In this document: positions 19,968-37,960 of the stretch, in pieces
Position numbering within the stretch: the stretch's first letter is position 1
Layout of the letters: each line of letters begins with the position of its first letter
From: a virus
Virus record (IMG/VR): IMGVR_UViG_3300044638_001221
Location: 1 to 54,785 of that record
Length of the DNA stretch: 54,785 nt
Strand: one strand, 5' to 3'
Program-made: the position numbers and the translations under genes
The notes under the pieces: model-generated
What the model saw: the letters and a program-made list of their open reading frames with translations, nothing else
Database searches by the model: none
What the model was told of the DNA's origin: nothing

Positions 19968-21517
19968 GTTCTTTCTAACTCATCTTTGTAAAGTTCCATC
20001 AAATTAAATTGCGCTTGCTCTTTGCTATCGAGAGCCTTGTACAACTTAGCTTCTACTGGACTGCCCATTAGTTTTACAACTAAACATTTGTTCTTCTGCC
20101 CAGCCCGATGTATACGGGCGTTTGCTTGAGCGTATGTTTCATAGGAAGTAATAGGCGACCACCACACCACTGTGTTTGCAGCGTGTAAGGTGACACCATG
20201 TGATGCTGCTTGGGGCTGTATGACAAGCACCCGTGGGTCAGCGTCTTCTTGAAACCGTTTGAAGATATCGGTACGCCTGCCTGCTGGCACGCCCCCGTGG
20301 ATTACTTCTACCGTGTAGTTATCTTTACGCAGGGTGTCGTACAGAATTTCAATCGAATGCCTAAACGGCACAAACACAAGTACCTTGTTGGTGGACTCGT
20401 CGATTACTTCTTTCAGCACGGCGATGCGGTTGCTGGCATCGAACGACACCACCTCGTCGTTGTCTGTATACACAGCGCCACAAGATATTTGCAGCAACTT
20501 GTTTAACTTAGCTGCTGCGTTGACTGCCGTGATTTCTTCACCCGCCGCTTGCACCGCCATAACCTTGCGTAACTTGTCGTAGTACTTGGTCTGCTGCGGG
20601 GTAAGAGGTACTTCCCGCTCGGTGTACAACATGTCGGGCAAGTCAAGGCATTGGTCTTTGGTAAAGCGTATAGCGGGCTGGAGCAGTGCGCTGACTGACT
20701 GCTCTGCGGTAACCTTGGGCACCCACTTGAACGCGGTAATCTTGTGCATCACTTGGTCGCGGTACATGGTAAAACTGCGGGGTGTAGCAGAGGGGTTGAC
20801 TAATTTGGCTAGGCCGTACGCATCAAGGGGCGACTGCGAAGCAGGTGTACCCGTCAGCATCCACAGCCACATGTTGGGTTTCAAGATGCGGTTGAGTACC
20901 TTCCAGCGGGTTGTGGTCGCCGTCTTATACGCGTTCGCTTCGTCAATCACAATCATGTCAAACCCAGCTTTTGCTATGACATCTTCAACCACGGCTACAC
21001 CGTCAAAGTTAATGATGACGAACTCAGCATCGGAGTTAATGATTTGTGTACGCTTTTCTTTGCTGCCGTAGGCTATGCCTACCCTGCGGTGCATCGCCCC
21101 TTTGAAGATGTCGTTCTGCCATGCGGCTTGCATGATGGATAGGGGACAGATGACCAGCACACGCTTGATGTGTTTGGTGTTCATCAGGTAGTCAGCCGCC
21201 CATGTAACCGATAGCGTCTTGCCTGTGCCCGGCTCGTTAAAGCAGAACGCCCTGCGGTGCAGGGTAAAGAACGCGGATGTTTGTTTCTGGTGGGTGAACG
21301 GTTGGTAGATTCCGGGCCAGTTGTACTTGGACACAATGGGCGAGGGTACGTTCTTTATACGTAAGTTTTTAAGTACCTGCGCTTCTTCCAAACCCCAATG
21401 CACCATGACTGTACTAACGTCGCCATCCTCCAGCAATGTGCTTTTTGGGATGACGCTTAACACCTTGTGTGGGTTGCGTAATTTGAGCTTTAATGCTCTA
21501 CCTTCAATAATTTCCAT
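19964..21517 (-). CDS. SNF2-family DNA helicase/translocase
   Basis: A 517-residue superfamily 2 ATPase. Walker A is NEPGTGKT (residues 94-101), motif II is D192-E193-A-N in place of DEAH, motif III is LTGTP (221-225) and motif VI is QANARIHRAGQ near the C terminus. These are the SNF2/Rad54-type signatures. Many phages carry such a helicase near their polymerase, where it probably remodels DNA-protein complexes or recombination intermediates. GGAG 5 nt before the ATG supports the start. It follows the 190-nt hairpin-rich gap after the HNH gene. Confidence 0.92.
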   Translation of the reverse strand: MEIIEGRALKLKLRNPHKVLSVIPKSTLLEDGDVSTVMVHWGLEEAQVLKNLRIKNVPSPIVSKYNWPGIYQPFTHQKQTSAFFTLHRRAFCFNEPGTGKTLSVTWAADYLMNTKHIKRVLVICPLSIMQAAWQNDIFKGAMHRRVGIAYGSKEKRTQIINSDAEFVIINFDGVAVVEDVIAKAGFDMIVIDEANAYKTATTTRWKVLNRILKPNMWLWMLTGTPASQSPLDAYGLAKLVNPSATPRSFTMYRDQVMHKITAFKWVPKVTAEQSVSALLQPAIRFTKDQCLDLPDMLYTEREVPLTPQQTKYYDKLRKVMAVQAAGEEITAVNAAAKLNKLLQISCGAVYTDNDEVVSFDASNRIAVLKEVIDESTNKVLVFVPFRHSIEILYDTLRKDNYTVEVIHGGVPAGRRTDIFKRFQEDADPRVLVIQPQAASHGVTLHAANTVVWWSPITSYETYAQANARIHRAGQKNKCLVVKLMGSPVEAKLYKALDSKEQAQFNLMELYKDELERT

Positions 21518-31656: not shown

Positions 31657-32751
31657 TCAGTGGGTTGGTTGATATAAACGGTCGAACAAGTCAGTCAATA
31701 CAGCATGTGTATCGAAGCACTCCAGCATGTCTTCTGCATCTTTCAATACCTTCTTGGTGAGTTTCTTTTTGTTCAAGAACTTGAACGCGAACTCGGGGTC
31801 TTGGGGGTAGCACGCATCACCAATCAGATAGAACAAGTCATCGGTCAGGCCGAACCCAGCGTCAGTCATGGCGTCAAAGAGCATTTCTTTATCCATGTCT
31901 AGGTCTGCGTCTGACCATGCGATGGCTGATTGCTGCCAGTTTCCTGTCCACGCTTTCGGGGCGTAGCACTTGTCGTCCACCTCGCCAGCTTTCCTACTAG
32001 TAGGAAGTTTGTCCCACGGCACATTCAGTACCGTCTTAGCCAGCGCTTCGTAGTGGAAGATGTTCAACGACTCTTTGTCGGTATGCTCTCGCTCATAGCC
32101 CACGCTGATGTTGGTGCATTCGGGTATGTAGTTGATGAACTCTGCCGTGTCGGTATACACACCTGTGTCGTCAGGCGAATACATGAAGTCAGGGTGGCTG
32201 TTCAACGCATCGCTCAACGCTTGTGCAAACGCATCACTACAACACCTGCCCCACCCTTGGTGCGAGATGACGCTGTCAATGCCCCTGCGGTCAAACGCAA
32301 TCGCCCTGTCGAACTCACCCAGTAACGCGCTGTGGTTCTCAGATAGGTAGGCCGCACCTATGCCGCCGCACTCTTCACCTTGTGTGAATACATAGTAGCC
32401 AGCAACATTGGCATGCAGCATATGCATCAGCATCGCACAACCCGCGCCATCGTCCGCACCCAGCGGTGCGCCATCTGCGTACCACATGTTCTTGGTCTTA
32501 CGCATCTTGTTCGGGCCATCCTCACGATGCACCGTGTCCACATGGGCAACGAATAGCGTACGGCTTGCTGCGTCATGCCTGTTGTCCACATGCAGGTTGC
32601 CCGCACCGTCTACCCATATGCGTTCGTTCACGCGTTCAGGCACAGCATTGGCAAGCCACTCGGTAAAGTACGCAACAGCCTTACCCTTATGCCCACGCTT
32701 GATAGACAAGGCACGGCACAGAGTTACATACAACATAGATTTCTTATTCAT
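31657..32751 (-). CDS. M20/M42-like zinc aminopeptidase or deacylase
   Basis: A 364-residue protein with the co-catalytic zinc peptidase layout: H70-x-D72 (FVAHVDTVH), GAD100-D-GAG, catalytic pair E126-E127 in TQGEECGG, D154 in AFDRRG and a late H222 (EREHTDKE). These are the marks of M20/M28/M42 aminopeptidases and related deacylases. The last 100 residues form an extra domain outside the peptidase core. It probably hydrolyses a small peptide or acyl-amino acid in the cytoplasm. An exact copy of the 16-bp palindrome family lies inside the coding sequence (31991-32006) and encodes part of LPTSRKAG. Such an enzyme is unusual for a phage. Confidence 0.82.
   Translation of the reverse strand: MNKKSMLYVTLCRALSIKRGHKGKAVAYFTEWLANAVPERVNERIWVDGAGNLHVDNRHDAASRTLFVAHVDTVHREDGPNKMRKTKNMWYADGAPLGADDGAGCAMLMHMLHANVAGYYVFTQGEECGGIGAAYLSENHSALLGEFDRAIAFDRRGIDSVISHQGWGRCCSDAFAQALSDALNSHPDFMYSPDDTGVYTDTAEFINYIPECTNISVGYEREHTDKESLNIFHYEALAKTVLNVPWDKLPTSRKAGEVDDKCYAPKAWTGNWQQSAIAWSDADLDMDKEMLFDAMTDAGFGLTDDLFYLIGDACYPQDPEFAFKFLNKKKLTKKVLKDAEDMLECFDTHAVLTDLFDRLYQPTH
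31991..32006. repeat. 16-bp palindrome, family copy 1 (inside a gene)
   Basis: TTCCTACTAGTAGGAA, a perfect palindrome inside the M20/M42-like gene, in frame. It is the only copy found within a coding sequence. Confidence 0.9.
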
Positions 32752-32782
32752 ACATTCTTTCCAGTTTCGGTTAAGTTAAAGT

Positions 32783-32798
32783 TTCCTACAAGTAGGAA
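32783..32798. repeat. 16-bp palindrome, family copy 2
   Basis: TTCCTACAAGTAGGAA, placed directly after the stop of the Cys-rich 460-residue gene and 32 bp before the peptidase gene start. Confidence 0.9.
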
Positions 32799-34181
32799 TT
32801 ATTCGGTAGTCTCAGGCGCTTCATCGGGGTGATACTTATCGCCATCTACCTCAACACATTCGGTATGGAAGTACCAATTGTCAGTCGCCGTACATTGCCA
32901 GCAGTCGTCTTTGAGTTTCGACTCACCATCGGTATCTTCAGGGGCACACACATCGTCATCGTCATGGTCATACCACACGCCATCGACACACACGGCATCG
33001 TCTATGTGTATGACCATATCTTCTTCATCGTGCAGGTACACCATGTTGTTGTCCGCAAGGTGGCTGCGGTGGTAGTAGTTGCCATCCCCATCTTCAACCG
33101 AATACTCGTTGTCGAAGTAGTAGGTGTTGCCGTTCCGCCCGTCACCGCTGACATAGTTGTCGTGAAGGCAGTTCTCGCACACATGGCGGTCTTCGTGATA
33201 GCCCACCCAGTACCCATCGCCATCGCTGACACTGTCGCCACAGTCCTCACACTGTTGCCCATCATCTACGGGTGACGCACTGCCGCCTGTCGAGTTGCAC
33301 TCAAACTCAGGGTCATCCTCTGTAATCCGCAAGTACCCCTCGCTGCGGTTCACGACCACGCCCTTTGTATCGCCGTCAATGTACGGGGCAAGGAAGTCGT
33401 CACCCGATGCTGCGAGGTACCGCAGCTTCTCGCCATTGTTGTACGCGCTCTGTTTGTCATAGCCCTGCTCAACCAGCCATGCTTCGAGCATCTCGTCTGA
33501 GGGTGAGTACCCAGCGGTCGCCTTGTACGAGCGCACCCAGTACTTGCCACGCTTGCCGTCTATGCACAACGCACGCCCTACTGTCTGCCCACCCTCGATA
33601 CGCACAGCCATGTGCCATCCATACTTGGGGTCATAGCATGAGTACGGGTGGCTGTCGTAGTCCGCATCTTCTTCTTTGTAGCTGTCCCACACCATGCACG
33701 ACTTCGGCCCCCGATGCAGGTGTCCAATCATGTCGTCTGTGGTGTAGACAAACTTACACCCTGTCGCCCCGTGCGCCGCAACCAAGTCACGAATGGCGTG
33801 GTCAGGCAGGTTGGAGAAGTGCATGCGCAGGTACTTGCCCAAAGATGTAATAGTCTGCAAGTTAGACTCACCCTTGCGCTCGTTCTGTGTGTACGCCAGC
33901 CTAGTGGGGTCTGTGTCTGCGCTATGCGGCCATTGCAGCAGCAACTCTTGCCAGTCGTTGGGTCGTGACATACGCATGGCTTTGCGTACTGCGGGGTGCA
34001 GGTTCGCGCTGTACTGCTCACGCCTGTGCCACTCACGCCCAAGCTGCACCTCTTGCTGCTCCCACCCATTGTTGGCGCTCGGCGGTATCGTCTGCCACCA
34101 GCCAGCCAAGATGCGGGCACTTGTGTCAAAGATGTTTTCCATGTCATCGGCGTTGTAGCCTGCTTCGGTATATGTTGCCAT
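32799..34181 (-). CDS. Large acidic protein with multiple Cys/His zinc-binding motifs
   Basis: A 460-residue protein from the ATG with GAGGT 5 nt upstream. The N-terminal half is mixed helical (residues 1-130), followed by a globular region with Tyr/Trp-rich loops. From about residue 325 it holds repeated Cys-pair units: CEDCGDSV, HVCENC, later CWQCTATDNWYFHTECVEV, set in very acidic linkers (DHDDDDVCAPEDTDG). This looks like several small treble-clef or zinc-ribbon units in tandem. Function is unknown; protein-protein binding or decoy roles are possible. Its stop abuts palindrome copy 2 and its leader holds copy 3. Confidence 0.7.
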   Translation of the reverse strand: MATYTEAGYNADDMENIFDTSARILAGWWQTIPPSANNGWEQQEVQLGREWHRREQYSANLHPAVRKAMRMSRPNDWQELLLQWPHSADTDPTRLAYTQNERKGESNLQTITSLGKYLRMHFSNLPDHAIRDLVAAHGATGCKFVYTTDDMIGHLHRGPKSCMVWDSYKEEDADYDSHPYSCYDPKYGWHMAVRIEGGQTVGRALCIDGKRGKYWVRSYKATAGYSPSDEMLEAWLVEQGYDKQSAYNNGEKLRYLAASGDDFLAPYIDGDTKGVVVNRSEGYLRITEDDPEFECNSTGGSASPVDDGQQCEDCGDSVSDGDGYWVGYHEDRHVCENCLHDNYVSGDGRNGNTYYFDNEYSVEDGDGNYYHRSHLADNNMVYLHDEEDMVIHIDDAVCVDGVWYDHDDDDVCAPEDTDGESKLKDDCWQCTATDNWYFHTECVEVDGDKYHPDEAPETTE

Positions 34182-34207
34182 ACCATACCTCTTTCTAGTT
34201 ACAGATA

Positions 34208-34227
34208 CCCTGTGAGTCGGCACAGGG
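34208..34227 (-). other. Hairpin in the leader of the Cys-rich gene
   Basis: CCCTGTG and CACAGGG form a perfect 7-bp stem with a 6-nt loop in the 75-bp gap between the zinc-ribbon gene and the Cys-rich gene. No U tract follows, so it is not a typical terminator. The palindrome copy at 34238-34253 is 10 nt further upstream. Confidence 0.6.
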
Positions 34228-34237
34228 CAAACCGTTT

Positions 34238-34253
34238 TTCCTACAGGTAGGAA
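34238..34253. repeat. 16-bp palindrome, family copy 3
   Basis: TTCCTACAGGTAGGAA, perfect arms, 3 bp from the stop of the small zinc-ribbon gene and upstream of the Cys-rich gene. Confidence 0.9.
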
Positions 34254-34256
34254 TTT

Positions 34257-34466
34257 CTAAGTCCTCTTTGGATTCAATTGTTTAAGTACTTCCATGTCTG
34301 TTACGAGCAAGTAATTACTTTTGTTCATAGGCACTATTGTATGCTTATGTTTGGCTGCTGTCAACTCACCGCATGACATGCATGTGCGATACCCTAGTGC
34401 GTATCGTGCAGGTGGTATGCGTTCCACATAGCATGTCAGGCAGGTGTAGTTGTGGTAGTGCGCCAT
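34257..34466 (-). CDS. Small zinc-ribbon protein (69 residues)
   Basis: A 69-residue protein. Two CxxC pairs (CLTC and CMSC, 18 residues apart) suggest a zinc ribbon. The second of two adjacent ATGs is chosen because GGAG lies 5 nt before it. It overlaps the stop of the small membrane gene by one base. A nucleic acid or protein binding role is possible. Confidence 0.65.
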   Translation of the reverse strand: MAHYHNYTCLTCYVERIPPARYALGYRTCMSCGELTAAKHKHTIVPMNKSNYLLVTDMEVLKQLNPKRT

Positions 34467-34627
34467 CATCTCTCCACGAGTTCTTCAACGATGGACAAGA
34501 GCAGCCATCCACCCATCCAGCCCGCACCCATGCAGAACAGCTTGGCAAACAGTCCTTCGGTCGTCAGCCCAAGGAACAGACAGGCGCACATAAGCACCGC
34601 CATAATGAGTACTTGTAATCTAGTCAT
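34466..34627 (-). CDS. Very small two-helix membrane protein (53 residues)
   Basis: A 53-residue gene: ATG at 34627 overlaps the stop of the upstream gene (ATGA), and TGA overlaps the next start. Two hydrophobic segments (LQVLIMAVLMCACLFLGL and LFCMGAGWMGGWLLLSIV) suggest two membrane passes with a short acidic tail. Early expression suggests an effect on the host envelope. A holin-like role is less likely given its distance from the lysis genes. Confidence 0.65.
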   Translation of the reverse strand: MTRLQVLIMAVLMCACLFLGLTTEGLFAKLFCMGAGWMGGWLLLSIVEELVER

Positions 34628-34878
34628 TTCAGTAACCCCTTCTCAAACATACGCTCCAGCATTGCGCTGTGAATAACTGAATAGCCCAAGTCCTTGCCCT
34701 TGGTTTCCATCCACTCCATCTCTTGCTCGGGGCTCAGTCCGAACGCCCCTGCGTTGCAACAGCACCAATGGATAGCAACATTGAAGTCAGCAGCCGAGTC
34801 GAACCATGTGCCATCGGGTGCAACGCACCCATAAAAAATGTCTTGGATGGTGCGCTTAAATTCTTTCCATGTAGTCAT
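34624..34878 (-). CDS. Hypothetical protein (84 residues)
   Basis: An 84-residue protein with an AAAGGGA site upstream and ATGA overlaps on both sides. It has a run of three cysteines (WCCCNAG) and a C-terminal helix. The stretch FGLSPEQEMEWME is helical and acidic. No family is recognised. Confidence 0.6.
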   Translation of the reverse strand: MTTWKEFKRTIQDIFYGCVAPDGTWFDSAADFNVAIHWCCCNAGAFGLSPEQEMEWMETKGKDLGYSVIHSAMLERMFEKGLLK

Positions 34879-35102
34879 TTGCTTTTCCCTTTCTTTTCAA
34901 ATGTGCCAAGCCATTGTGTGCCTTCGACTTGGGGTTGATACCTCTTGATGTCGTAGTCTTCGGTGTGGGGTAGCGGCACAAGGTAGAGGTTGTAAGTCTC
35001 GCCTTCTTTGTCCATCAGTTGCAGTAGCTGACGCAGGTCGCGGGTTGCGTTGGTCGTCATCCATGTGTACACGCTTGATGCGTAGAAGTGGAAGTCGGTC
35101 AT
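34875..35102 (-). CDS. Hypothetical protein (75 residues)
   Basis: A 75-residue protein, Tyr-rich, with a helical centre (ATRDLRQLLQLMDKEGE) and a basic Lys/Gly tail. It is joined to both neighbours by ATGA overlaps. The layout resembles small phage proteins of unknown role. No function can be assigned. Confidence 0.6.
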   Translation of the reverse strand: MTDFHFYASSVYTWMTTNATRDLRQLLQLMDKEGETYNLYLVPLPHTEDYDIKRYQPQVEGTQWLGTFEKKGKSK

Positions 35103-35284
35103 TTCACTACCCCTTTTTCGCTGATAAATAAATATTCTTCTGGTTCTTGCTCGCGTAGTTCTACTAGCTCTTCGAGGTAGCGGGTTATTTCGATACGCAA
35201 ATACTCAGGCAGGGTTTCCCACATGGATTCGGTTTTGCCATCACTCCACTTGAAGTTAAGCGTACAGTTTGTTACGGTTTTCAT
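35099..35284 (-). CDS. Hypothetical protein, first gene after the structured leader (61 residues)
   Basis: A 61-residue acidic protein with AAAGG 5 nt before its ATG. It has a short beta start and an amphipathic helix (EYLRIEITRYLEELVELREQE). It is the first gene of the unit led by the promoter at 35934-35962 and the long gene-free leader. No family is recognised. Confidence 0.6.
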   Translation of the reverse strand: MKTVTNCTLNFKWSDGKTESMWETLPEYLRIEITRYLEELVELREQEPEEYLFISEKGVVK

Positions 35285-35306
35285 ATATACCTTTCAGTTT
35301 CGAAAT

Positions 35307-35322
35307 TTCCTACAGGTAGGAA
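35307..35322. repeat. 16-bp palindrome, family copy 4
   Basis: TTCCTACAGGTAGGAA, identical to copies 3 and 8, 22 bp upstream of the first gene of the unit. Confidence 0.9.
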
Positions 35323-35868
35323 GTAGTGCGGTATGCACCCACAAGCCCACAGAATGAGCTTGCAGTTGTCTACAACTTGTTAAACGACATAGTGTCCAGC
35401 CACTATGCGCATCGTCTTCGTTTGGTTTGATTCGCATCCACGATAGGTCTTGTCGTTCGCACATCTCCCCTTGTTACAGGGCTTGCGTTCCGCTTGGTTG
35501 GGGGTCATTGCATAGGCGCGGCGAATCATCAGGGCGGGTGTGCCCCAGTAATAGATAGTTGATTGCCGTTAGCTATGCACCACAGGCGATGCCTGCTGTT
35601 GTCTCATCCAATAGGGGTGCGCGATGCACCCCGACCATTTAAGTGGTAAGTACTTTTTATGACCTCTGTTACCAAGGTCATACGCCGACTGCCTACGGCA
35701 CGCCTTGTCGCACAGGAAGTATTCTCACAGACAGTTTCTCTTTGCTTGGCATAAAGCCATTCGTTGACAGTCTGATTCCTACTATGTGCTTCTCGTATAC
35801 ATTACTTCCGAGCGGCGGGTATTCCAAGCCATTGTTGGTGGCTTGTGGTAAACATGTTATTAAAGAAC

Positions 35869-35903
35869 TTCCTACTGGTAGGAGATTTTCCTACACTTGG
35901 GAA
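35869..35903. repeat. 16-bp palindrome, copy 5 plus a degenerate neighbour
   Basis: TTCCTACTGGTAGGAG (35869-35884, one arm mismatch) is followed after 3 bp by the degenerate TTCCTACACTTGGGAA (35888-35903). The pair lies about 30 bp downstream of the -10 box of the leader promoter. Confidence 0.75.
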
Positions 35904-35933
35904 ACCACGATGGATTTCCACTTATTAAGACAT

Positions 35934-35962
35934 AGTATAACACAACTAGAGCGTATTGTCAA
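35934..35962 (-). promoter_or_regulatory. Strong leftward sigma70-type promoter of the structured leader
   Basis: TTGACA (35957-35962), 17 nt, TATACT (35934-35939) read leftward: the best match to consensus in the window. The expected transcript starts near 35927 and runs through the gene-free hairpin region before the first gene. Confidence 0.87.
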
Positions 35963-36004
35963 GTCAGAACAAGTGGAAACAAGCGGCGAATATATCAAAC
36001 AATA

Positions 36005-36505
36005 CTACCGCATACGGGTTATCTCAAGGGCGTTCTCGTTGCCTATGCGCTTGCTCTTGAAGCGTTTACCATCTACCTTCTTGTTGTAGTAGGAAATCAT
36101 GGACTGTATGTTGTGCGCCAGCGCATCAGGTACGATGAACGACTCTCTGTATTTAAGTTCTTTCAAGCGGGTCTTTGCGTCCACACTTGCGCGTATCAAA
36201 TCCTTGCCCTTGTGCTGGTCGCGCATGGCGTGTGCCAGTAGCTGAGTTTTGTTCTCTGCCACATCGTTGATAAATGTTGCGCTTGTATTTATGCGGCGGT
36301 CGATGGCTTTGTTCACCATGACTGCATCTATCGTGGCGGTTGGCAGTTCCATGTCATCCAGCCCATCGAACAAATCCGCATACTTGGTGGTGGCAAGTGC
36401 AGACAGCTTGCGGTTGGGTTCGGGCAGAACGCCGCTCATCTTGTGCGGGTTGCGTTCCGATGTGGGTGCGTTAAACATGGTGTTGAAGTCGTTGAGTAGT
36501 GACAT
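36005..36505 (-). CDS. Hypothetical early protein (166 residues)
   Basis: A 166-residue protein with AAGGA 5 nt before its ATG and a promoter about 30 bp upstream. It is helical and basic. It contains a middle segment with NKAIDRRINTSATFINDVAE and a strongly basic C terminus (YYNKKVDGKRFKSKR) that could bind nucleic acid. No family is recognised. It stands apart from the next gene by the structured leader. Confidence 0.65.
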   Translation of the reverse strand: MSLLNDFNTMFNAPTSERNPHKMSGVLPEPNRKLSALATTKYADLFDGLDDMELPTATIDAVMVNKAIDRRINTSATFINDVAENKTQLLAHAMRDQHKGKDLIRASVDAKTRLKELKYRESFIVPDALAHNIQSMISYYNKKVDGKRFKSKRIGNENALEITRMR

Positions 36506-36535
36506 GGTGTTCCTTGTGTTCTGTGTTCCAATCAG

Positions 36536-36564
36536 ATTATGCGTGTACTCAGAGGGGAAGTCAA
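36536..36564 (-). promoter_or_regulatory. Leftward sigma70-type promoter
   Basis: TTGACT (36559-36564), 17 nt, CATAAT (36536-36541), read leftward. Transcription should start about 25 nt before the ATG of the 166-residue gene. Confidence 0.78.
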
Positions 36565-36739
36565 TAGGAACGATGTGGTAAAAGATAATGGAAGTGTGTA
36601 GATGGTAATGGAAGATAGCAAATTAGGTGTTTTTGTTCCATGTGTACGCAAAAGTCTGGTTTTTGAAAATAAAACCTAGCCGTATTTCCGAACATGCTGC
36701 GCCTAACCGAACGAACAGAAAACCCACAAAAAATAGAAG

Positions 36740-36755
36740 TTCCTACCAGTAGGAA
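36740..36755. repeat. 16-bp palindrome, family copy 6
   Basis: TTCCTACCAGTAGGAA, perfect arms, in the gene-free stretch upstream of the promoter at 36536-36564. Confidence 0.9.
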
Positions 36756-36803
36756 AAATTCCCAGCCCCAAACCCACAAAACCAAAGAAACGAGAACACA
36801 CTA

Positions 36804-37012
36804 CTAACTAATAATAATATATATCTATATCTCTCTCTCTCTCATGTGCTATTCTTGATTGGTTGCTACTAAACGATATCAAACAGCATGTTCTGATAGC
36901 GACCAAGAACTTTTGTGTACAGGCGTGGTTGCTTAGAACATAGAACGCATGGTTGCATGGGTGCTTTGGCGTGGTTGCTACGGCGTAGACCCCACCAGTT
37001 CTCTACCAGTTC
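36804..37012. other. Gene-free region with AT-rich tract, CT run and GGTTGC repeats (candidate origin)
   Basis: The 605-bp gap 36506-37110 has no believable gene. It holds an AT-only-like tract (36804-36830), a CT dinucleotide run (36831-36843) and four GGTTGC repeats at 36861, 36927, 36951 and 36973, the last three spaced 24 and 22 bp. ACCAGTTC is also repeated at 36994 and 37005. Repeats beside an AT-rich tract resemble iteron origins, but no replication initiator of that type is seen, so this is only a candidate. Confidence 0.35.
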
Positions 37013-37016
37013 CCAG

Positions 37017-37055
37017 AAAAAAAAATAAAAAACCCGCATGGCGCAAACCAAGCGG
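37017..37055 (-). terminator. Second tandem terminator
   Basis: Read leftward, CCCGC and GCGGG (37032-37036 with 37051-37055) form a short stem with a 14-nt loop, followed by a run of T interrupted once by A. It lies just downstream of the stronger terminator at 37060-37081. Confidence 0.65.
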
Positions 37056-37059
37056 GCAA

Positions 37060-37081
37060 GAAAAAACCCCTCTTGCGAGGG
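37060..37081 (-). terminator. Intrinsic terminator after the 156-residue gene
   Basis: CCCCTC-TTGC-GAGGGG (37066-37081) forms a 6-bp GC-rich stem with a tetraloop; read leftward it is followed by six T (37060-37065). It ends the single-gene unit of the 156-residue protein. Confidence 0.92.
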
Positions 37082-37091
37082 GTTCTGAAAA

Positions 37092-37107
37092 ATCCTACAG
37101 GTAGGAA
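37092..37107. repeat. 16-bp palindrome, family copy 7
   Basis: ATCCTACAGGTAGGAA, one mismatch in the first base, 3 bp after the stop of the 156-residue gene and just before its terminator. Confidence 0.82.
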
Positions 37108-37110
37108 AAT

Positions 37111-37581
37111 TTATTCTTTGATTTCGTACCCTTCCGATTCAAGGTAGGCTTGGATAATTTCGGACAATGTGCCCTCATCATTTTGAAATGCGGTTTCAAA
37201 GTCTGACACTAAACCCGCAAAATCTTTGTGAGAAAAGAGCTTCGCAAGTAACGCGTGTACTTCGCTTGGCGCTTTGTCTTTCCCGCCTTTGGCTTTGCCC
37301 TTGGATGCACTAAAAGAAAATGGCGTGCCCTCGTTAACTGCAGCGACAATGGCGGTCATATAGTTAGCCACAGTCTTTGCCGATACACCTTTGAATGTAG
37401 CTTTCATTGCGTCTTGTAATGTTGCACGGTTAACGCAAGTCTTGACAGACTTACCAAATTTCAAGCCCGCCTTTTTGCAGTCAGTGATTTTGGTGTTTAT
37501 CACTTCCAAAGCATTGTGCCCACTATGCACTGCAGCGACAATGGATTTAATTGTGCCGATTGAATCGAATGATGTAGTCAT
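37111..37581 (-). CDS. Hypothetical early protein in its own transcription unit
   Basis: A 156-residue protein with its own consensus promoter and tandem terminators, so it is the first leftward unit. It is helical and Lys/Ala/Val-rich. A middle segment (FKGVSAKTVANYMTAIVAAVNEG) is followed by a Lys/Gly-rich linker (KGKAKGGKDK) and an acidic C-terminal helix (EIIQAYLESEGYEIKE). No family is recognised. Strong separate expression suggests an early protein acting on the host, such as an inhibitor or regulator; this is inference. No typical Shine-Dalgarno is obvious. Confidence 0.68.
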   Translation of the reverse strand: MTTSFDSIGTIKSIVAAVHSGHNALEVINTKITDCKKAGLKFGKSVKTCVNRATLQDAMKATFKGVSAKTVANYMTAIVAAVNEGTPFSFSASKGKAKGGKDKAPSEVHALLAKLFSHKDFAGLVSDFETAFQNDEGTLSEIIQAYLESEGYEIKE

Positions 37582-37643
37582 AAAATACCCCTAAAGTTAC
37601 TAGGTATCGGTAGAGATAAAACACTCTTTGAACCGATAAATGC

Positions 37644-37672
37644 ATTATGCGCCCTTTTAATCACTTTGTCAA
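37644..37672 (-). promoter_or_regulatory. Leftward sigma70-type promoter of the first early gene
   Basis: TTGACA (37667-37672), 17 nt, CATAAT (37644-37649), read leftward. A palindrome of the 16-bp family lies 14 bp upstream of the -35 box, and an ATCGGT/ACCGAT inverted repeat lies between the start site and the gene. Confidence 0.83.
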
Positions 37673-37686
37673 GCGTTATATATTCT

Positions 37687-37702
37687 TTCCTACAGGTAGG
37701 AA
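37687..37702. repeat. 16-bp palindrome, family copy 8
   Basis: TTCCTACAGGTAGGAA, perfect arms, immediately upstream of the first early promoter and in the divergent region between the leftward and rightward blocks. Confidence 0.9.
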
Positions 37703-37899
37703 AAACGCCCCTACGCCATCGACTTGCGCCACCAGTTCCCCCCACCCGCCCCCCACCGTCCCGCTATGTGTTAGGAGTCCCGTGGCTGCTATACACTGTA
37801 TTACAGTCAAACGATGTCCAGTTAATTTCAAATCGACCCCCCACCCCCCTTCTTTTTCCGGCAAGATTACATTTATTTTTACTTACAGGAAACCCCCCC

Positions 37900-37913
37900 A
37901 CGTTCCGGAACGT
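37900..37913. promoter_or_regulatory. 14-bp perfect palindrome in the divergent region (candidate operator)
   Basis: ACGTTCCGGAACGT is a perfect palindrome, unrelated to the 16-bp family. It lies about 20 bp upstream of the weak -35 box of the terminase promoter, in a 385-bp gap (37582-37966) that otherwise shows only C-rich runs and the leftward promoter region. Confidence 0.55.
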
Positions 37914-37930
37914 ACCCCCTTCAATATTTT

Positions 37931-37960
37931 TTAACTGGTTCTATTATTTTTTGGTATAGT
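37931..37960 (+). promoter_or_regulatory. Rightward promoter of the head module, possibly leaderless
   Basis: TTAACT (37931-37936), 18 nt, TATAGT (37955-37960). The start of transcription expected 6-7 nt after the -10 box falls at the A of the terminase small subunit ATG (37967). No ribosome site precedes that ATG, which fits a leaderless mRNA. Confidence 0.6.

Follow-up and report, generated by a model that had tools for sequence, protein, structure and literature searches.

The leader that precedes the replication genes of this virus is almost certainly a structured non-coding RNA. Sequence comparison places it in a previously undescribed family, new among the few very large RNAs of phages, with 35 distinct elements in two clades: one in the window (the entire 54,785-nucleotide stretch analysed here) and the others in 34 further viral contigs, a count that includes some near-identical strains and a few elements cut by contig ends. 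The carriers are uncultured lake phages, distant relatives of HTVC023P and DSL-LC04. The element would be a large structured RNA of about 330-750 nt, transcribed leftwards from its own strong promoter; the transcript of the early (replication) operon would begin with it.

Promoter and gene-free leader

The initial annotation described an empty stretch at 35285-35962, which is confirmed and lies on the minus strand. Within it the leader spans about 650 nt, from 35933 to the start codon of the gene at 35099-35284, with the RNA 5′ end (about 35927) placed from the -10 box. The TTGACA-N17-TATACT promoter that had been called the best in the window is present (Table 1), but its 11 of 12 matching positions are equalled at three other sites; all four are on the minus strand, and only this one carries a TG extended -10. 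The same TTGACA promoter with a 17-nt spacer occurs in every family member whose contig extends far enough.

The statement that this DNA holds no credible gene also stands. No sense-strand gene of at least 60 aa lies between 35933 and 35285, the longest sense ORFs there being 56 and 49 aa. From member to member the longest sense ORF changes in length (28 to 116 aa) and follows no shared frame; the search for a conserved coding frame in family members found none. A small protein from the 49-aa ORF (35380-35529) was considered and rejected, as the frame is split in two in L004 and present in no other locus. The leader is hairpin-rich as described (single-sequence folding z = -3.1 on the minus strand and -5.6 on the plus strand, with the family excess on the minus strand), its family palindromes are borne out by one exact copy, one with a single mismatch and one degenerate copy, and the small genes downstream are indeed packed closely or overlapping. 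Beyond that annotation, the element is now assigned to the minus strand, contains a boxA-like motif and belongs to a widespread family.

A second gene-poor stretch of about 600 nt is found at 36506-37110, with a CT-rich simple repeat near 36830, a palindrome at 36740 and DNA-level conservation with L004. On the minus strand at 37020-37090, after the gene at 37111-37581, two tandem strong intrinsic-terminator-like hairpins with T-runs would isolate the transcription units upstream of the RNA.

Table 1. Features of the leader and its immediate surroundings, in window coordinates
Feature	Position	Strand	Remarks
Promoter TTGACA-N17-TATACT, near-consensus, TG extended -10	35934..35962	-	motif and conservation
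Large structured RNA with leader (putative)	35285..35927	-	homologues in 34 other distinct contigs; covariation
P0 hairpin GGAAAUCCAUCGUGGUUUCC	35900..35919	-	kept in L048, which is without the RNA
Degenerate palindrome copy	35888-35903		TTCCTACnnGTAGGAA family
5′ family palindrome CTCCTACCAGTAGGAA	35869..35884	-	TTCCTACnnGTAGGAA with 1 mismatch
boxA-like motif GTTCTTTAATAACA	35855..35868	-	conserved in nearly all members
P1 hairpin	35825..35845	-	hairpin in 27 of 27 distinct sequences, mean z -3.3
PX helix, 5′ arm CGCC	35814..35817	-	pairs with 35701-35704
P2 hairpin CUCG...CGAG	35792..35812	-	six distinct arm pairs, all paired
PX helix, 3′ arm GGCG	35701..35704	-	pairs with 35814..35817
P5 hairpin GCCG-UAGGCAGU-CGGC	35684..35699	-	loop nearly invariant; six distinct arm pairs, all paired
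Hairpin with loop UGGUAACAG	35658..35682	-	read from alignments without statistics; stem differs, e.g. in L013, L072, L083
Middle domain, conserved blocks UUAAAUG and ACGACAAGACCUAUCG	35438..35643	-	missing from short forms
3′ domain: variable hairpin 35387-35408 and extended helix 35326-35381	35326..35408	-	26 predicted pairs
3′ family palindrome TTCCTACCTGTAGGAA	35307..35322	-	exact TTCCTACnnGTAGGAA; missing in several relatives
First gene of downstream operon, 61 aa	35099..35284	-	another first gene in most relatives

Distribution of the family

The closest named records are phage DSL-LC04 and Pelagibacter phage HTVC023P, whose terminases have 46.6% and 45.7% identity, respectively, to the terminase of the window. 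Scanning IMG/VR with the terminase yielded 80 related loci, whereas no viral contig gave a relative when the neighbouring protein (36005-36505) served as bait. By blastn the leader is conserved in L004 and, in pieces, in other loci; nhmmer with a two-sequence profile located it, running opposite to the terminase gene, in about 20 loci. Two DNA patterns built from the conserved core added further members, including clade B (L088, L090, L091, L093, L095, L098, L102-L105 and L108); terminases of this clade share only 50-52% identity with that of the window. Searching 18 further related contigs, mostly fragments, with a covariance model gave no additional member. The RNA of L004, the closest relative, matches that of the window at 86% of 528 aligned bases and is thus better conserved than the genes on either side, which have 60-70% nucleotide identity.

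The RNA has no family match in Rfam 15 at the gathering score, group I and group II intron and ribozyme models included, and none among the large-RNA families of Rfam at a permissive E<=5. Three versions of it gave no blastn match in GenBank phages, and it was not found in the parts compared of DSL-LC04 (30 kb) and HTVC023P (25 kb) or, within the sensitivity of a core-pattern scan, in one genome per species from 84,980 bacterial and archaeal species. The 22 bacterial matches to a 21-base P5 pattern are chance-like, none reaching beyond the motif (about 10 bits at most), and were rejected.

Two features of the related genomes were seen in passing. Many related contigs (the starts of L002, L003, L005, L008 and L009) end 0.65-1 kb upstream of the terminase, equivalent to window 37600-37960 and close to the C-rich repeat of 37738-37849; this may be where the genome ends or is packaged. 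DSL-LC04 (L131) has its own gene-free stretch of about 640 bases at 20474-21118, near the small terminase gene; it is unrelated to the family RNA by profile search and may hold a different RNA or an origin.

Fold and covariation

The elements follow a common order from 5′ to 3′: P0, a palindrome, the boxA-like motif, P1 and a junction closed by PX that encloses P2 and the variable P3 region, then P5, in many members the UGGUAACAG-loop hairpin, the middle domain and the 3′ domain with its extended helix, and finally, often, a second palindrome before the ribosome-binding site. Clade A members have a similar hairpin with an AUCG-like loop at the place of P0. The arms of PX, about 110 nt apart in the window, occur across the family as CGCC/GGCG, CGUC/GACG and CAUC/GAUG, and the loop of P5 is nearly always UAGNCAGU or UACCCAGU.

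Covariation in relatives, which the initial annotation had proposed as a check, was scored on related sequences with shuffles and slides rather than with R-scape. The helices were tested singly because RNAalifold on long MAFFT alignments resolved only part of the fold, the hairpin sequences being too diverged. PX, P2 and P5 are paired in 99.4% of cells against 87.2% after shuffling, and their covariation score on a 27-sequence alignment is 0.333 against 0.095, a value reached in none of 500 shuffles. Moving one side by 1-3 columns lowers pairing to 24-55%, and exchanging arms between rows leaves P5 62% and P2 68% paired, against full pairing of the real arms. The slide control and the repeated arm types weigh more than the shuffles, since related sequences can beat shuffles without any structure. 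In the 3′ domain, 11 of the 26 predicted pairs have changes on both sides.

The fold favours one strand. Among 14 members the mean folding z is -3.2 on the sense (minus) strand and -0.9 on the antisense strand; one alignment, D5, folds slightly better in antisense (-12.7 against -10.9), whereas the sense strand folds better in the other four and in each of the 14 single sequences. For the window, the margin from boxA onward is bare (z -2.4 sense, -2.2 antisense), and the whole leader gives the reverse. These results bear on the suggestion that the region is part of an origin, or another DNA element whose hairpins act as DNA. Gene-free, palindrome-rich DNA close to replication genes would suit such an element, but the folding excess and most of the consensus fold belong to one strand, the consensus uses G-U pairs, the covariation is of the RNA type, and the conserved promoter and boxA point to transcription, so that we regard a DNA element as very improbable. 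The stable regulatory RNA that had also been put forward is upheld as far as the RNA goes: strong covariation together with the lack of a conserved protein frame, two of the points on which the initial annotation would have let it stand or fall, make the structured RNA real.

Genomic position and length forms

In the window the RNA heads a leftward gene block carrying DNA polymerase, helicase and primase, assumed to form one transcript over all genes down to 15269, and in seven further contigs from both clades (L100, L083, L084, L087, L097, L090 and L095) it is on the same strand as the DNA polymerase gene, about 9-17 kb upstream of it. The first gene after the RNA differs between relatives, which argues against control of one particular gene. 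No terminator is seen between the RNA and this gene, and the consensus fold leaves the ribosome-binding region unpaired. A riboswitch or attenuator acting on the next gene would be expected in the 5′ leader of an operon, but these three observations oppose it, and it is the least probable of the readings weighed here.

The distance from boxA to the ribosome-binding site is 326-751 nt across members. Clade B and most of clade A have the middle domain; L083, L013, L022, L054, L056, L057, L016 and L080, about one third of full-length clade A members, are without it. In L048 (1-568) the promoter, P0 and one palindrome are followed directly by the sequence that relatives have 3′ of the 3′ palindrome; the ribosome-binding region is kept and boxA and the RNA are missing, as if the two palindromes had recombined and removed them. 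The L048 contig covers only 7 kb of a genome that may carry a copy of the RNA elsewhere. The frequent lack of the middle domain and the loss in L048 indicate that the RNA is not indispensable everywhere.

The position of the RNA also bears on a cis-acting role, in which the whole RNA would be a processive antiterminator, a giant counterpart of HK022 put or the Bacillus EAR element, that rides with boxA on the polymerase through the early operon of about 20 kb. The RNA always heads the early operon and is co-directional with it, boxA is present, no terminator is seen before the next gene, and the variability of that gene fits a general rather than a gene-specific effect. However, put and EAR are several times smaller than these 330-750 nt, a separate middle domain has been gained or lost, and terminator-like sites in the operon (24, against 19.9 in shuffled sequence) show no excess, so no special need for read-through is visible. 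We consider cis antitermination by the whole RNA a minority possibility, to be taken seriously.

The boxA-like motif

A motif of the type G(U/C)UC(U/A)UUAA(A/C)A lies 53-93 nt after the -10 box in nearly all members, with weaker forms in L016 and L080. The copy in the window departs from the consensus, and a match in the window alone is expected by chance, so the argument for boxA rests on conservation. In clade B the motif is often GCTCTTTAACAA, which we take to be the boxA of the E. coli rrn operons. Conservation of the motif suggests that it probably serves transcription of the RNA. It also bears out in part the initial proposal of an antitermination leader like put or nut RNAs; the length, far beyond what nut or put would need, does not agree with that proposal.

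In E. coli, boxA relieves Rho termination in a reporter with a 567-nt untranslated leader insert, and expression of nut RNA is reported to titrate Nus factors (PMC4807359). The latter effect, together with the strong promoter and boxA, would allow the leader to act as a decoy: by titrating NusB/S10, or other host factors that bind RNA, it would reduce the synthesis of rRNA in the host. Copies of boxA would suffice for this, and the conserved multi-helix body would be left unexplained; we judge a decoy to be very improbable.

The palindromes

The sequence TTCCTACnnGTAGGAA, allowing up to three mismatches, has nine matches in the window against 1.5 expected, all within 31991-37702 (8 main sites). 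Six palindrome types occur among the phages: TTCCTAC-n-GTAGGAA, TTCATAC-n-GTATGAA, TCTAATATTAGA, TTCGTAC-n-GTACGAA, TTCCCAC-n-GTGGGAA and GTCATAC-n-GTATGAC. In the DNA examined, each phage keeps to a single type, present 3-12 times, and lacks the other five. The palindromes lie mostly between (early) genes, near both ends of the RNA and sometimes at the tips of RNA hairpins (L100). Their spacer varies by about one base, as would be more natural in an RNA hairpin than in a rigid DNA operator. They may be recognised by a lineage-specific protein or mark places of RNA processing, and could also be operators of different immunity-like specificities.

Proposed role of the RNA

We propose that boxA would load host NusB/S10 and allow the polymerase to pass a long, untranslated and Rho-sensitive leader, as in rRNA operons. 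Less certainly, the body of the RNA would work in trans, folded and perhaps processed, as has been suggested for GOLLD and ROOL. We have a modest preference for action in trans over action in cis, on the grounds of the size of the RNA, its conserved loops and its modularity; as no terminator is seen at its 3′ end the RNA may be simply a leader, a discrete RNA being putative. For the chain as a whole, a new RNA family at the head of the early operon with boxA antitermination and action in trans, we see an even chance.

An extension of this proposal, which we hold to be rather doubtful, is an rRNA-like phage transcription unit, in which host antitermination would be captured through boxA and a large RNA would fold co-transcriptionally, be freed by processing at the flanking palindromic hairpins and act in trans, perhaps on ribosomes or as an oligomeric scaffold of the GOLLD or ROOL kind.

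Very large structured phage RNAs of unknown function number only a handful, and the present family is distinct from them and not in Rfam 15. It offers clues that other large phage RNAs lack, namely a promoter, a boxA-like signal and a fixed place heading the replication operon, and in addition short and long natural forms and, in L048, a clean example without boxA and the RNA. These make its expression and function directly testable.

Comparison with known systems

GOLLD and ROOL are large RNAs of phages and prophages, of unknown function, that form RNA nanocages and are often near tRNA islands (PMC12286853). The family RNA resembles them as a very large, multi-helix, phage-encoded non-coding RNA without a known protein partner. 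It differs in having no sequence or covariance-model match to either and in heading the early operon, preceded by a promoter and a boxA-like motif; the window also has no tRNA, though tRNA proximity is frequent rather than obligatory for GOLLD and ROOL.

The EAR element of Bacilli is about 120 nt long. Like EAR/LoaP, the present family opens a long operon with a structured RNA, but the family RNA is larger and without an Rfam match. With lambda nut and HK022 put it shares the position in the leader of a phage early operon, together with boxA (nut) or an RNA that acts on polymerase (put), although it is several times longer and multi-domain, and any direct action of it on polymerase is hypothetical. 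HK022 put RNA is short, about 65 nt with two hairpins, and at 326-751 nt the family RNA falls outside its size. In lambda nut the hairpin comes after boxA, whereas in the family RNA it precedes boxA, as in rrn leaders.

The order of the rrn leader is boxB-boxA-boxC (PMC10250234). In both systems a strong promoter is followed by a hairpin, boxA and then a long untranslated structured RNA; the family RNA differs in being phage-encoded, in containing no rRNA, in a body unrelated to Rfam and in that its hairpin is a lineage-specific palindrome. The family suggests a link between the giant RNAs of phages and the machinery of host rRNA transcription.
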